DNA of 64,000 nucleotides from Pelagibacteraceae bacterium AG-426-I15 (GTDB lineage Bacteria > Pseudomonadota > Alphaproteobacteria > Pelagibacterales > Pelagibacteraceae). The notes under the pieces are model-generated. The model made no database searches, had not been told where the DNA came from, and saw nothing but the letters and a program-made list of their open reading frames with translations. Of this stretch, positions 57 through 9,677 are shown one piece after another. The stretch lies in assembly GCA_003213135.1 (NCBI GenBank), contig QCNT01000001.1, forward strand, positions 1 to 64,000, given 5' to 3'. Numbering within the stretch: the first letter of the stretch is position 1; each line of letters starts with the position of its first letter. Both the position numbers and the translations under genes were made by a program.

Positions 57-380
57 TTAAATTTTAATTAAAAATATAACTAATACTAATGTGATTATTA
101 TACTAAATAAAACAAGTAATCTGTTTGCGGCATTTTTGATTTTAAAATTGTCAATATAATCCTCAAAAACCTCACTTATAGTTAGCGTATAAAAGGTAAA
201 GGCTATTACAATGAACAAACAGAATATAATTTTAATTGATGTATTTGAGAGAAATGATGTTAGTTGAGAACTGTTAGCACCAAAATAAGATACAAAATTT
301 ATAACAAACCAAATCAAAAAGGGTATTAGCAAACCAGAAGAAATTTTAATTGCTAACCACTTTCTAGTTGCTTTAATCAT
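57..380 (-). CDS. sdhD: Succinate dehydrogenase hydrophobic membrane anchor subunit
   Basis: Three-TM small protein between sdhC and sdhA. Confidence 0.8.
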   Translation of the reverse strand: MIKATRKWLAIKISSGLLIPFLIWFVINFVSYFGANSSQLTSFLSNTSIKIIFCLFIVIAFTFYTLTISEVFEDYIDNFKIKNAANRLLVLFSIIITLVLVIFLIKI

Positions 381-381
381 T

Positions 382-750
382 TTAAATTATATTCCTTCCT
401 AATGTATAAAATAAAATTGCCAATATAAAAGATCCTACTATGGCTATTATGCCAGTTATCTTTGATACTTTTAAATCGAACCCGTAACCTATATCCCATG
501 CTAAATGCCTAATCTCATTTAAAATTTGAAAACTAAATGACCAACATAAAGATATGATTAAGAATTTTCCAAAAAATGACTGGAACAATATTTGGAGAGA
601 TTGAATATTAAAAATTAAAATTGATGAAATTAATATGATAGCAAAAAAATTTATTATGCCAACGATTCGGTGAGTTATAGATAAAAGCGAAGATATGTGC
701 CAACTATAAACTTGGATATGTGGGGACAGAGGTTTATTTTTATTATCCAT
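382..750 (-). CDS. sdhC: Succinate dehydrogenase cytochrome b556 subunit
   Basis: RPLSPHIQVY-like N-terminus (KPLSPHIQVYSWHISSLLSITHRIVG) and H-R motif typical of SdhC. Confidence 0.9.
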   Translation of the reverse strand: MDNKNKPLSPHIQVYSWHISSLLSITHRIVGIINFFAIILISSILIFNIQSLQILFQSFFGKFLIISLCWSFSFQILNEIRHLAWDIGYGFDLKVSKITGIIAIVGSFILAILFYTLGRNII

Positions 751-1747
751 AATATTTTTTTATAAGTTTTTCTGCAATTTGTACTGTATTTAATGCAGCT
801 CCTTTAAGCAAATTATCTGATACGACCCACAAATTAAGTGCTTTATTATTAGAGCTATCTTTTCGGATTCTAGAAATAAAAGTTAAGTAACTATTTTCTG
901 CTTCTAAAGGTGTTATATATCCTCCGTCTTTTCTTTCATCTAAAACCTTACACCCGTTAGCCTTTTCTAAAATATTTTGAACTTCTTTAACATCAAATGG
1001 TTTTTCAAATTCAATATTGATTGACTCTGAATGGGAGACAAGTACAGGTACTCTAACGCAGGTAGCTGTTATTTTAATTTTTGGATCTAAAATCTTTTGA
1101 GTTTCATTTATCATTTTCCACTCTTCTTTTGTATAACCTTCGTCAACAAATTCATCAATATGTGGTATCAAATTAAAAGCTATTGGTTTTGTAAAATTTT
1201 TAGAGTTTATTTTTTTTCCTTCTAAATAATCCTTTGATTGACTTAATAATTCATCCATCGGAGCTTTGCCTGCCCCTGATACAGATTGATAAGTTGAGAC
1301 CACGACTCTTTTAATATTAAAACGATCGTGTAATGGTTTTAAAGCTACAACCATCTGTATAGTAGAACAATTAGGATTGGCGATTATATTTTTCTTTTTA
1401 TACATCTCCAATTGATCCGGGTTAACTTCGGGGACTATTAAAGGAACATCATTGTCCATTCTAAAAAATTTTGAATTATCTATTACAACTGTTTTTTTAC
1501 TTGCTTTAGGTACCCATTGTTCAGCTATTTTACTCCCTGCAGCAAAAAAAGTAATTGGAGCATTTGAAAAATCATATTTTTCAATACTTTGGATTGTTAT
1601 TTCACTATCTTTGAATTTCATTTTTTTTCCTTCGCTTCTAGGAGAAGCAATAAGAAATAGTTTTGAAATTTTAATTTTAGACTTTTCTAAAATCTCAATA
1701 GTTTTTCTTCCGACGTTGCCGGTGGCACCAATTATAGCTAAATTCAT
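743..1747 (-). CDS. asd: Aspartate-semialdehyde dehydrogenase
   Basis: GATGNVG nucleotide motif and NPNCSTIQ active-site cysteine. Confidence 0.95.
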   Translation of the reverse strand: MNLAIIGATGNVGRKTIEILEKSKIKISKLFLIASPRSEGKKMKFKDSEITIQSIEKYDFSNAPITFFAAGSKIAEQWVPKASKKTVVIDNSKFFRMDNDVPLIVPEVNPDQLEMYKKKNIIANPNCSTIQMVVALKPLHDRFNIKRVVVSTYQSVSGAGKAPMDELLSQSKDYLEGKKINSKNFTKPIAFNLIPHIDEFVDEGYTKEEWKMINETQKILDPKIKITATCVRVPVLVSHSESINIEFEKPFDVKEVQNILEKANGCKVLDERKDGGYITPLEAENSYLTFISRIRKDSSNNKALNLWVVSDNLLKGAALNTVQIAEKLIKKYYG

Positions 1748-4877: not shown

Positions 4878-5357
4878 TTACTTTTGTTTATCTGATTTCT
4901 TAACTTCTTCTTTTTCTGTAATTTTTTTTTCAGAAACTTCCTCTTGTGAGGGTGTTTCTGGAATTGAGGTTTTAACATCAACTTCCATTCCAATATTTTT
5001 TTTAATTTTTTCAGCAATTCTAGCAGATTTTCCTTCTCTATCTCTTAAATAATACAGTTTAGCCCTTCTCACTTTTCCTGAACGAATTACTTTTATAGAA
5101 CCTACAACAGGACTATATAATGCAAAAGTTCTCTCGACTCCTTCCCCAAATGAAATTTTTCTTACAGTGAAAGAAGAATTGATATTTCTATTTTTTTTTG
5201 CAATACAAATTCCCTCAAAATTTTGAATTCTTTCTCTCTTGCCTTCCACAATTCTTACACCAACTCTGATAGTATCTCCTGGAAAAAATTCAGGGATTTT
5301 TCTTTTTGAAACGATTTTTTCAAGATTTGCTTTATTAATGTCCTCTATATTTTTCAT
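4878..5357 (-). CDS. rplS: 50S ribosomal protein L19 with charged C-terminal tail
   Basis: [28 protein letters not shown]; order trmD-rplS. Confidence 0.95.
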
Positions 5358-6049
5358 TTTTTATCTTTTTTTAAATATTTTTTCCATAAATCTGGTCTTC
5401 GGCGTCGTGTTATATCCTCTGATTGGGATAAACGCCAGTCCTTAATTTTGGCATGATCGCCAGATAATAGGACCTCTGGAACACTTTTTTTTTCCCATAT
5501 TTGCGGTTTTGTGTATTGAGGGTATTCTAATAATTCGTTTTCAAAACTTTCTTCATTTTTTGACATATCGTTCCCCAGTACTTTTGGCAGCAGTCTTAGG
5601 ACTGCATCTATAACTACAATAGATGCTGTTTCACCTCCAGAAAGAATATAGTCTCCAATACTAATTTCTTCTATTCCTCTTGAATCAATAACACGTTCAT
5701 CAATTCCTTCAAAATGTCCGCAAATTAAGTTTATGGTTTTTTCTTTGGATAATTCTTTCGCCATTCTTTGATCAAACTTTTTTCCTTTTGGAGATAAATA
5801 AAAAATTCTTTCGCCTTTATTTGTATTTTTGTCTATTGATTTTGCCAAAACATCTGGTCTCAACAACATACCGCTTCCACCACCAAAAGTTTTATCATCG
5901 ACTGTTTTGTGTTTATCGTCTGCAAAATCTCTAATGTTTACAGCCTCTAAGCTCCATATTTTTTTTTCTAATGCTTTACCGTATAAACCTTTGCTTAAAG
6001 GTCCTGGAAATATTTCTGGGTATAACGTAAATACTCTTACAGACCACAT
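5354..6049 (-). CDS. trmD: tRNA (guanine37-N1)-methyltransferase
   Basis: [37 protein letters not shown] and GDYILSGGE motifs. Confidence 0.96.
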
Positions 6050-6465
6050 TATTTCTTCTTTTCCTCTTTTTTTGCCTCCTGTTTAGGAGCTTCTTTTTTA
6101 GGTTCCTCTTTTTTTGCCTCCTGTTTAGGAGCTTCTTTTTTAGGTTCCTCTTTTCCATCTTTTTTTCTATCTTTTTTTGGAATAGCCTTTTGAGGGTTGT
6201 TCCCTGGTTTAGGCATTGGCATAATATTTATTTCTCCTAGGATTCTAGAAACTCTTACTGTCGGCCTTGCACCTTTGCTTAACCAATGTTTTACTCTTTC
6301 TGCCTCTAATTTAATTCTCTCTTTTTTATCTTTGGGCAAAAGGGGATTGAATGATCCAAGTTTTTCTATAAATCTCCCGTCTCTTGGAAATCTGCTATCA
6401 GCAACAACTATTTTGTAAATTGGTCTTTTTTTCGCTCCACCCATTGATAATCTTATTTTTAACAT
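6049..6465 (-). CDS. rpsP: 30S ribosomal protein S16 with low-complexity Lys/Glu/Pro C-terminal repeats
   Basis: [41 protein letters not shown]. Confidence 0.96.
6061..6150 (-). repeat. Tandem 42-bp (14-codon) repeat, about 2 copies, in the rpsP 3' end ([14 protein letters not shown] unit)
   Basis: gcctcctgtttaggagcttcttttttaggttcctctttttt begins at 6074 and again at 6116. Confidence 0.9.
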
Positions 6466-6475
6466 TTTGATCCTT

Positions 6476-7825
6476 TCATTTTAGATTGTTTAATAATTCA
6501 TCAGGTATTTGTCCTTTAGGTACTTTACCTTGAGACATTTTCTTCATCATTTTTGACATCATCTTAAACTGCTTGAGCAAACGATTAATAGTTTGAACAT
6601 CAGTTCCAGATCCTAATGAAATTCTTTTTCTTCTTGAACCACTTATAATTTCTGGGTTCTCTCTTTCTTTTTTAGTCATAGATAAAATAATTGCTTCGTT
6701 GGCGGTCAAAAGTTTTTCGTCTACATTTGCATTTTTCATTTGCTCTTTTGCTTTACCTACCCCTGGTAAAAGTGATAGAACGCCTTCCATGCCCCCCATT
6801 TTTTTCATTTGTCTAATCTGCATTAAATAATCTTCGAAAGTAAATTTACCTTTCTTTAGATTTTCCTCAGCTTCTTTGATTTTCTCTTCATCTAGGTCTT
6901 GGGAAGCTTTTTCTACAAGAGAAACCACATCTCCCATACCAAGAATTCTATTCGCTAATCTGTCAGGATAAAATTTTTCAAAATCATCAATTTTTTCTCC
7001 AACACCTATAAATTTAATAGGTTTTCCAGTAGTTTGTTTCATGCTTAAAGCTGCACCACCACGACCATCACCATCGACTCTGGTCAAAATAATACTTGTT
7101 AATTTTACAGATTTATCAAATTCTGATGCGAGATTAACAGCTATTTGTCCTGTCAGTGAGTCTGCGACCAGCATTGTTTCCACAGGATTAACTTCTGCTT
7201 TTAAATTCTTGATCTCAGACATCATGTTTAAGTCAATTTGAGTTCGCCCAGCTGTATCGAAAATTATAATGTCTGAACCGTTAAGGCTTGCAGCATTCTT
7301 GGCTCTTTTTGCTATATCTAATGGAAGCTGGTCTTTAATAATTGGAAGTACGCTTAAATTATTTTTTTCACATAAAATTTTTAATTGTTCCTGTGCTGCT
7401 GGTCTGTATACATCTAAACTTACTAATAATGTTTTTTTCTTAAAGTTTTTTTCTAAATTTTTTGCTAATTTAACTGAAGTTGTTGTTTTTCCAGAACCTT
7501 GTAAACCAAGTAATAATATGGATGCTGGAGGAGTTGCTTTTAGATTTATTGTTTCGCCTTCACCTCCTAATAATAGAACTAGTTGATCATAAACAATCTT
7601 TACTAGCATTTGGCCTGGTGAAGTAGATCTAATAATCTCTTGGCCAATAGCTTTAGGTTTAATATCTTCAATGAATTTCTTAACTACGGGCAGTGCCACA
7701 TCAGCGGCTAATAAAGCCCCTCTAATTTCTTTTAAACCAGTTTCTACCTGGCTTTCATTAAGTGAAGGGGCTTTTTTTAGATTACTAAATATTCCCTCTA
7801 ATTTATTTGTTAAATTTTCAAACAT
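6476..7825 (-). CDS. ffh: Signal recognition particle protein Ffh
   Basis: Start corrected to [16 protein letters not shown] (ATG at 7825). [22 protein letters not shown], and Met-rich M domain [15 protein letters not shown]. The track's extra 47 N-terminal residues lie in the structured leader. Confidence 0.96.
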
Positions 7826-7837
7826 TTTTTTTATTTT

Positions 7838-7945
7838 TCCAACACCTATCGCACTAGTGGGCGAACCATCGCTGACTAGTGTCGATCCCTTTATTTCTAA
7901 AGGCACCGCAAAATCTAATATTTGCGGAAGTGACGAGAAGCTACA
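7838..7945 (-). ncRNA. Structured 5' leader RNA upstream of ffh (candidate cis-regulatory element)
   Basis: Minus-strand hairpins: CCGCAAA/UUUGCGG (7906-7912 with 7921-7927); CCUUUA-GAAA-UAAAGG (7888-7903, GNRA loop); CACUAGU/ACUAGUG (7852-7858 with 7875-7881) with nested GCGA-UGGU-UCGC. The region is visibly more GC-rich than its surroundings. A candidate ffh leader motif has been described in Pelagibacter (from memory). Confidence 0.8.
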
Positions 7946-7989
7946 ATTAAGGGTTTTAAAAGTCAATGAATAAAGATACTAATCAAATT

Positions 7990-8802
7990 ATGGCACTTTT
8001 AAACGCTTACAGAATGAATGGTCTTGGAAATAATTTCTTAATTATTGATAGAAGGAATAATGCAATAGAACTAAGCAAAGACAAAATAGTAAGTATATCA
8101 AACATGAGGATAGTTCCTTTTGACCAATTAATTACTTTAGAAAAAGATGAAAAAAATAAATACCCTATAAAAATTTTCAACCCTGATGGAATTGAAGTAA
8201 CTGCATGTGGGAACGGTGCAAGATGCATTGCATATTTAATTTTCAATGAAAATAAACAAAAAAATATTTCAATAAAAACAAAAGAGAGAATTTTGACAGC
8301 TGAAATAGTTGGAAAACAAAACGTTAAAATAAATATGGGAAAACCAAAATTCGGGTGGGAAGAAGTACCATTAAGTGAAGAAATGAGTACGAAAGAGGTT
8401 ATTATTGATTTTTTAGATAAAAAATATGGGTATGGATTTTGTATAAATGTCGGAAATCCTCATATTGTTTTTTTCGTAAAAGATTGTTCTGGAATTGACA
8501 TAAAAAAATTGGGACCAAAAATTGAAAATTACAAATTTTTTCCAGAAAGAACTAATGTAACCTTTGCTCAGGTTTTGGACAAAAGGAATATTAAAGTCAA
8601 TGTTTGGGAAAGAGGTGCTGGACAAACAAAAGCTTGTGGTACTGCAGCCTGTGCAGTTGCTGTTGCAGCCTCAATAAAAGGTTTGACAGATAAAAATTTA
8701 CAGATTCATTTTAAAGAAGGAAATCTTCAAATTGACTACCAAGAAGAAATATTTATGGCCGGGCCTGTTTCAGAAGTTAAAGAAATTAAAATAGATATCT
8801 GA
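7990..8802 (+). CDS. dapF: Diaminopimelate epimerase
   Basis: YRMNGLGNNFLIID, NPDGIEVTACGNGARCIA and GAGQTKACGTAACA motifs; start could also be 7966. Confidence 0.95.
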   Translation: MALLNAYRMNGLGNNFLIIDRRNNAIELSKDKIVSISNMRIVPFDQLITLEKDEKNKYPIKIFNPDGIEVTACGNGARCIAYLIFNENKQKNISIKTKERILTAEIVGKQNVKINMGKPKFGWEEVPLSEEMSTKEVIIDFLDKKYGYGFCINVGNPHIVFFVKDCSGIDIKKLGPKIENYKFFPERTNVTFAQVLDKRNIKVNVWERGAGQTKACGTAACAVAVAASIKGLTDKNLQIHFKEGNLQIDYQEEIFMAGPVSEVKEIKIDI

Positions 8803-9677
8803 TGAAATTTTTTGAAAATTTTAATTTTAACAATTTGTTTAGTAAAAAAAAGATAGACAAAAATTTACTAGACAAATTTGAAGAACTTCTCATTGAATCC
8901 GATGTTGGTGTACAAATAGCCTCAGATCTAAAAGAAAAATTTAAAAAAGAAAAAATAGGCAAAGAAATTAAAGATGAAAAAGAAATATTTGATTTTCTTG
9001 GAGATCAAATATCTAAAATACTAAGTCCTTATGAAAGAAAACTTAATGATCTTTGTAAAAATTCCCCGTCTATAATAGTTGTAGCTGGAGTAAATGGTGT
9101 AGGTAAAACAACTACTATTGGAAAATTAGGAAAATTATTTACAGATAATGGAAAAAAAATAGTTTTTGGTGCTGCTGATACATTCAGAGCAGCTGCAATA
9201 GATCAGTTAGAGCTTTGGTCTAAAAAAATTGGTGCTGATTTTGTAAAGTCAGATATTGGAACTGATCCCGCATCTGTTGGGTACAAGACAGCAAAATTTG
9301 TCGAGGAAAATAAATCAGATATAGCTTTTATTGATACAGCGGGAAGATTACAAAATAAAAAAAATCTTATGGAAGAGTATAAAAAAATATTTACGGTATT
9401 AAAGAAAATAGATCCAGAATATCCACACGAAACTATCTTGATTTTAGATGCTACAACAGGTCAAAATGCTTTAAATCAAGTAGAAGAATTTAAAAAGGTT
9501 TCTAAAGTGACTGGTTTAATTTTAACAAAATTAGATACTTCGGCAAAAGGAGGAATATTATTGGCTATAACCAAAAAGTATAGTTTACCTATTATTGCGG
9601 TCGGTATGGGAGAAAAAGAAAGTGATTTACATCCATTTGACCCTATACGATTTTCTAAAATGCTAATTAAAAACTAA
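8802..9677 (+). CDS. ftsY: Signal recognition particle receptor FtsY
   Basis: VNGVGKTTTIGKLGKLF, AADTFRAAAIDQLELW, DTAGRLQNKKNLMEEYKKI and LTKLDTSAKGG. Confidence 0.96.
   Translation: MKFFENFNFNNLFSKKKIDKNLLDKFEELLIESDVGVQIASDLKEKFKKEKIGKEIKDEKEIFDFLGDQISKILSPYERKLNDLCKNSPSIIVVAGVNGVGKTTTIGKLGKLFTDNGKKIVFGAADTFRAAAIDQLELWSKKIGADFVKSDIGTDPASVGYKTAKFVEENKSDIAFIDTAGRLQNKKNLMEEYKKIFTVLKKIDPEYPHETILILDATTGQNALNQVEEFKKVSKVTGLILTKLDTSAKGGILLAITKKYSLPIIAVGMGEKESDLHPFDPIRFSKMLIKN

Follow-up and report, generated by a model that had tools for sequence, protein, structure and literature searches.

What kind of RNA is encoded in the spacer between dapF and ffh of Pelagibacteraceae bacterium AG-426-I15, and to what does it respond? 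We addressed this question in a stretch of 64,000 nucleotides of genomic DNA, which as a whole is called the window below. A sequence-only reading of the same DNA had placed three consecutive perfect hairpins upstream of the ffh ATG (7825), in the minus strand of the spacer that separates this gene from dapF. All three are present at the positions claimed and all three stems pair, but the term perfect does not apply to the last one, where one C-C mismatch and one A-C pair break the stem. The GC excess noticed there was also found, the value being 0.45 in 7850-7949 as compared to 0.19-0.42 in the remaining 100-nt segments of the 7000-9000 region. For the 151-nt stretch the folding energy is -40.2 kcal/mol, compared with -28.3 +/- 3.7 in its dinucleotide shuffles (z -3.2), and none of 200 shuffles was as low.

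In the predicted fold the first hairpin, P1 (7906-7927, minus strand), pairs CCGCAAA at 7927-7921 with UUUGCGG at 7912-7906. The second, P2 (7883-7908, minus strand), which is supported by covariation, consists of an inner stem of CCUUUA (7903-7898) and UAAAGG (7893-7888) closed by a GAAA tetraloop and, beyond a G-G mismatch, of an outer extension of CGGU (7908-7905) with AUCG (7886-7883), added by RNAalifold when run unguided. Since the CGG at 7906-7908 is common to P1 and to the outer part of P2, these hairpins compete for three base pairs. The third one, P3 (7852-7881, minus strand), has seven base pairs, CACUAGU (7881-7875) with ACUAGUG (7858-7852), starting from C7881-G7852, then the mismatch C7874/C7859, the A-C pair and four base pairs of GCGA with UCGC. 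It is followed at 7839-7851 (minus strand) by a conserved single-stranded element, CGAUAGGUGUUGG, with the consensus CR(A/U)U...G(U/C)U(U)GG obtained from position counts in three lineages. This element, U-rich in GC-rich alphaproteobacteria, may be the output of the leader. Pairing of AUCG with a CGAU located after P3, seen in the window, is lost in relatives and was rejected.

Comparison with Rfam, as proposed in the sequence-only reading, gave a full-length match to RF01793 'ffh' at 7844-7896 of the minus strand, inside which P3 lies (cmscan, 49.4 bits at a gathering threshold of 35, model positions 1-52 of 52). It is the sole Rfam family in the 64-kb window, occurs once in the genome and ends 19 nt from the ffh ATG. 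The survey of Pelagibacter intergenic regions mentioned in the sequence-only reading is that of Meyer et al. 2009. It described the ffh motif as one bulged hairpin lying between ffh and dapF in 'Candidatus Pelagibacter ubique' and reported it missing from Rhodospirillales and Caulobacterales; the authors offered no mechanism and denied any likeness to the Ffh site on 4.5S RNA (PMC2704228). No later study of the motif was found in the open-access papers searched. The folded RNA before ffh is real and already catalogued, so the object is not new. Judged from the alignments, the RNA is larger than its catalogued form: P2 belongs to it too, while Rfam and the 2009 paper cover the last hairpin alone.

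Compensatory changes had been proposed as a check for all three stems, and they were found in P2 and P3, while in P1 the signal was weak. In 38 diverse Pelagibacterales sequences six of the nine P2 pairs (all five inner and one of the four outer) and two pairs of P3 have changed in a compensatory manner, with covariation scores never attained by shuffles; across Alphaproteobacteria this applies to eight of the nine P2 pairs. Realignment of 46 sequences from Pelagibacterales, other alphaproteobacteria and the MED-G09-type order described below by a covariance model gave 17 of 20 P2 and P3 pairs changed on both sides and a score of 0.534, compared with 0.195 for shuffles and at most 0.100 for slid controls; these values are biased in favour of the model, to which the alignment was fitted. 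In a separate parse of 115 unique leaders, for which the best-pairing placement of P3 was chosen, all 1265 cells of the P3 stem were free of mismatches, and as many as five types of pair occur at one position. The C-C mismatch is kept in 114 of these leaders and the first C-G pair in all 115. The position of the A-C pair is occupied in other alphaproteobacteria by G-U, C-G, G-C or U-A, and by A-A in further families. As for P1, 98.7% of its cells are paired in the 38 Pelagibacterales sequences, with one pair changed on both sides, and the median folding z of its segment is -2.0 in Pelagibacterales and about -1 elsewhere. P1 is common, yet by covariation it is the least supported of the three hairpins. 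Stem cells of the 115 leaders contain 28 G-U and no A-C combinations, on which basis the RNA was assigned to the ffh strand.

The supplied open reading frame track extends Ffh by 47 N-terminal amino acids, from a TTG at 7966, located 141 nt upstream of the ATG at 7825. This extension had been regarded as an error of the track, and we agree. A conserved in-frame extension would have spoken for coding, and the frame proved to be open and in register solely in the window's own sequence, i.e. in 1 of 65 relatives. Moreover, the TTG is part of a conserved -35 box, TTGACT (7961-7966, minus strand), the TTGAC of which precedes the motif in all 65 unique Pelagibacterales leaders; on both grounds the extension was rejected. 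A predicted -10 box, TAGCTT (7938-7943, minus strand), follows at 17 nt, and a hexamer of the TAGNTT/TAANTT type with spacing of 16-17 nt is found in most relatives. Transcription would then start near 7932, just upstream of P1. A generic sigma-70 scan did not call this putative promoter because of its weak -10 box, and it is conservation that suggests it. On the opposite strand, the dapF start assigned to the ATG at 7966 probably lies too far upstream. The initial codons of this frame directly adjoin the -35 box of ffh, and DapF proteins are matched better by a start at the in-frame ATG 7990 (MALLNAYRMNGLGNNF).

Matches to RF01793 are present in 267 of 297 Pelagibacterales genomes and in 106 of the 385 genomes of a class sample. 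Most of the genomes compared are metagenome-assembled. With a model of two hairpins (matches at E <=0.03, E-values of purpose-built models being rough) the leader was detected in 13 of 20 alphaproteobacteria which have ffh but lack the Rfam match, counted at class level only, and one further Rfam-negative leader (L282) was recognised by eye. Thus the RNA family is wider than recorded.

Behind the leader the window carries, all on the minus strand, ffh (6476-7825; Pfam SRP54_N, SRP54 and SRP_SPB) as the first gene of the operon, rpsP for ribosomal protein S16 (6049-6465; Pfam Ribosomal_S16), trmD (5354-6049; Pfam) and rplS (4878-5357, by similarity to RplS of locus L129, Pfam Ribosomal_L19), in the order ffh-rpsP-trmD-rplS-leuC-leuD. 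The next gene after the leader is ffh in nearly all genomes, and loci reaching far enough have rpsP downstream, usually with rimM, trmD and rplS. The exception is L285 of genome G470 (141-1559, minus strand), in which a gene for a GNAT acetyltransferase follows ffh and no rpsP occurs within 1.7 kb; extra genes separate ffh from rpsP in L178, L181 and L182 as well. No rimM reading frame is present between rpsP and trmD (5354-6465) in the window or in some of the MED-G09-type genomes, which leaves rpsP-trmD-rplS as the constant cargo of the leader. P3 is clear of the ribosome binding site, its distance from the start codon being 9-285 nt. According to a review from 2024, regulation of the trmD operon is wholly unknown, which is rare among ribosomal-protein operons (PMC10931766). 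We also observed that the C-terminus of rpsP (6049-6200) is a K/E/P/Q repeat and that contigs of many relatives start about 1.66 kb downstream of the motif, inside rpsP, where the repeat probably breaks assemblies.

The evidence that separates the leader from ffh comes from a MED-G09-type order, comprising 18 metagenome-assembled genomes (G345, G469, G564, G640, G683, G677 and 12 relatives; loci L128-L131, L152-L165 and L176), six of which are at least 90% complete. The dapF of G345 is identical to that of 'alpha proteobacterium MED-G09' (CAJIZT010000008.1). Neither Ffh nor FtsY was found in this order with a protein query detecting both in SAR11. The SRP54 GTPase domain exceeded the cut-off in 0 of the 18 genomes and in 14 of 14 controls, and the RNA of the signal recognition particle (SRP; RF00169) was likewise detected in none of the 18 as compared to 11 of 14 controls, an absence that is weak by itself because RF00169 also misses the divergent SRP RNA of the window's own genome. 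Nevertheless, the leader is kept in 14 of the 18 genomes, in each of the 14 directly before rpsP, and contigs that are long enough show dapF beyond it, transcribed divergently. The operon of L129 reads rpsP-rimM-trmD-rplS-leuC, and ftsY is not among the dapF neighbours. Within the order P2 and P3 have undergone compensated changes (G-C to A-U, C-G to U-A, and CGGU/AUCG to CAGU/AUUG), which indicates an RNA under selection and no relic. We found no report of SRP loss in related clades in the open-access papers searched; in E. coli such a loss is tolerated only when translation is slowed (PMC7844537). Full-length matches to Ffh and FtsY are missing from more genomes of the class sample, namely G371, G580, G657 (family f77), G425 (f131), G364 (f70), G634 (f41), G350 (f56) and G313, G444 and G621 (f19), and some of the class-sample absences may be assembly or search gaps.

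Retention in genomes without detectable ffh, together with a place on the ribosomal operon in each lineage, fits the leader of a translation operon better than it fits a switch for ffh. Our reading, somewhat likelier to be right than wrong, is that it acts in cis for the (ffh)-rpsP-(rimM)-trmD-rplS operon and that its trigger is a component of translation, not Ffh. The leader would be transcribed from just upstream of P1 on the ffh strand, P2 and P3 would form the conserved core binding a factor whose level reports on the condition of the translation apparatus, and this binding would set expression of the operon; the regulatory role and the output step are inferred. The likeliest factor would be ribosomal protein S16 in the role of a feedback repressor, followed by L19 and TrmD. 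By analogy with other ribosomal protein operons S16 feedback is the most economical trigger, but S16 in particular is named only tentatively, as a choice less likely to be right than wrong. In a crude scan of E. coli 16S and 23S rRNA loops no convincing mimic of the S16 or L19 site was noticed in the P3 loop, the matches being weak or long-range. This speaks against the proposal, as do the gene order in L285, the variable distance between P3 and the start codon, and the dependence of the SRP absence on metagenome-assembled genomes. The boldest form of the proposal, in which RF01793 is the autoregulatory S16-operon leader of nearly all Alphaproteobacteria and a whole marine order of that class has dropped SRP while keeping the leader, we regard as plausible, yet more readily wrong than right. 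The usual view of RF01793 as a control element of ffh is probably wrong.

Among other explanations, a leader which serves as a 5' stabiliser or a translation-enhancing untranslated region and has no specific ligand would account for hairpins that start where the mRNA is predicted to begin and for a P3 that stays upstream of the start site, leaving it uncovered. We consider it unlikely, as the C-C mismatch of 114 out of 115 leaders, the invariant first C-G pair, CGGU/AUCG and the 3' element represent more specificity than stabilising requires.

The family name implies, and the sequence-only reading had offered as an example, that ffh is repressed when Ffh or 4.5S RNA attaches to the leader. The position of ffh as the next gene nearly everywhere speaks for such SRP autoregulation, and the UCAG beside the A-C pair of P3 faintly recalls the symmetric loop of SRP RNA. 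That pair, however, varies in other alphaproteobacteria, so there is no conserved SRP-like loop, in line with the lack of likeness to the 4.5S site stated in 2009 (PMC2704228). Co-occurrence with Ffh, expected of an Ffh-responsive leader, fails in the MED-G09-type order, where Ffh, FtsY and SRP RNA are all undetectable and the leader, always before rpsP, persists with compensated stems. This makes autoregulation by SRP quite unlikely. A role as a substitute for SRP RNA was also considered, as suggested by the absence of RF00169 from the window's genus; the window's genome then proved to carry, between pheA and dnaX, a divergent SRP RNA (L256:14414-14507, plus strand, 25.1 bits at an RF00169 gathering threshold of 40), and the idea was abandoned. 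RF00169 misses other Pelagibacterales genomes in the same way. It has no match in the 64-kb window, so that the leader itself does not qualify as an SRP RNA.

We find it improbable that the RNA is a riboswitch of the operon sensing a metabolite or an alarmone. The mutual limitation of P1 and the outer P2 through the CGG would suit a switch, as would column 54 of the alignment, which in five sequences changes jointly with its two partners, 33 and 79. This triple change is perhaps a single evolutionary event, though, and the core consists of two simple hairpins, with neither a junction nor a long conserved unpaired pocket; no terminator-like site is present in the window.

Rfam lists the family as 'sRNA', and a stand-alone, trans-acting RNA would agree with sm5 of S. 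meliloti, a transcript of about 120 nt between dapF and ffh on the ffh strand (PMC2573895), and with small spacer transcripts in marine metatranscriptomes, as cited by PMC2704228. UUUU follows P3 in 41% of GC-rich alphaproteobacteria versus 3% of control windows and could end some transcripts. Such a role is very improbable in view of the class-wide strict linkage to one operon and of the window, which has neither a U-run nor a terminator; a short RNA could equally be a processed or paused leader. Finally, a dapF leader on the opposite strand or a coding Ffh extension, to which the divergent dapF of SAR11 and the open frame of the window might point, can practically be dismissed given the G-U cells of the ffh strand, the lack of dapF in the retrieved flanks of many class-level loci and a frame that only one of 65 relatives keeps open as far as the TTG.

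We return to the proposed translation-operon leader. What is new about it is P2 as a part of the RNA, the wider range obtained with the two-hairpin model and the persistence before rpsP where SRP is not detectable. If the leader belongs to the S16/L19 (trmD) operon, the question of the RF01793 trigger, which dates from 2009, and that of the operon's regulation merge into one which can be tested.

Three known systems may be compared with this RNA. Helix 8 of bacterial SRP RNA has the form GUCAGG...AGCAGC with a two-sided symmetric loop. The leader shares with SRP RNA (RF00169) a UCAG beside non-canonical pairs and the Ffh context, whereas the conserved two-sided loop is a feature of SRP RNA that the leader lacks. 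With RF01793 it has in common the ffh/dapF spacer and the final, C-C-bulged hairpin. GGGAUCG is left unpaired in the one-hairpin drawings of Rfam and the 2009 paper, while here these nucleotides are the 3' strand of the covarying P2. Other ribosomal proteins repress their operons via their own leaders. Compared with such leaders, here ffh is usually the first gene, S16 is a candidate ligand and the crude scan gave no rRNA mimic. In three respects the RNA resembles the autoregulatory leaders of ribosomal proteins, such as the rpsB and rpsL motifs (PMC2704228): it is likewise structured, promoter-proximal and placed 5' of a ribosomal protein operon, in this case that of rpsP and rplS.
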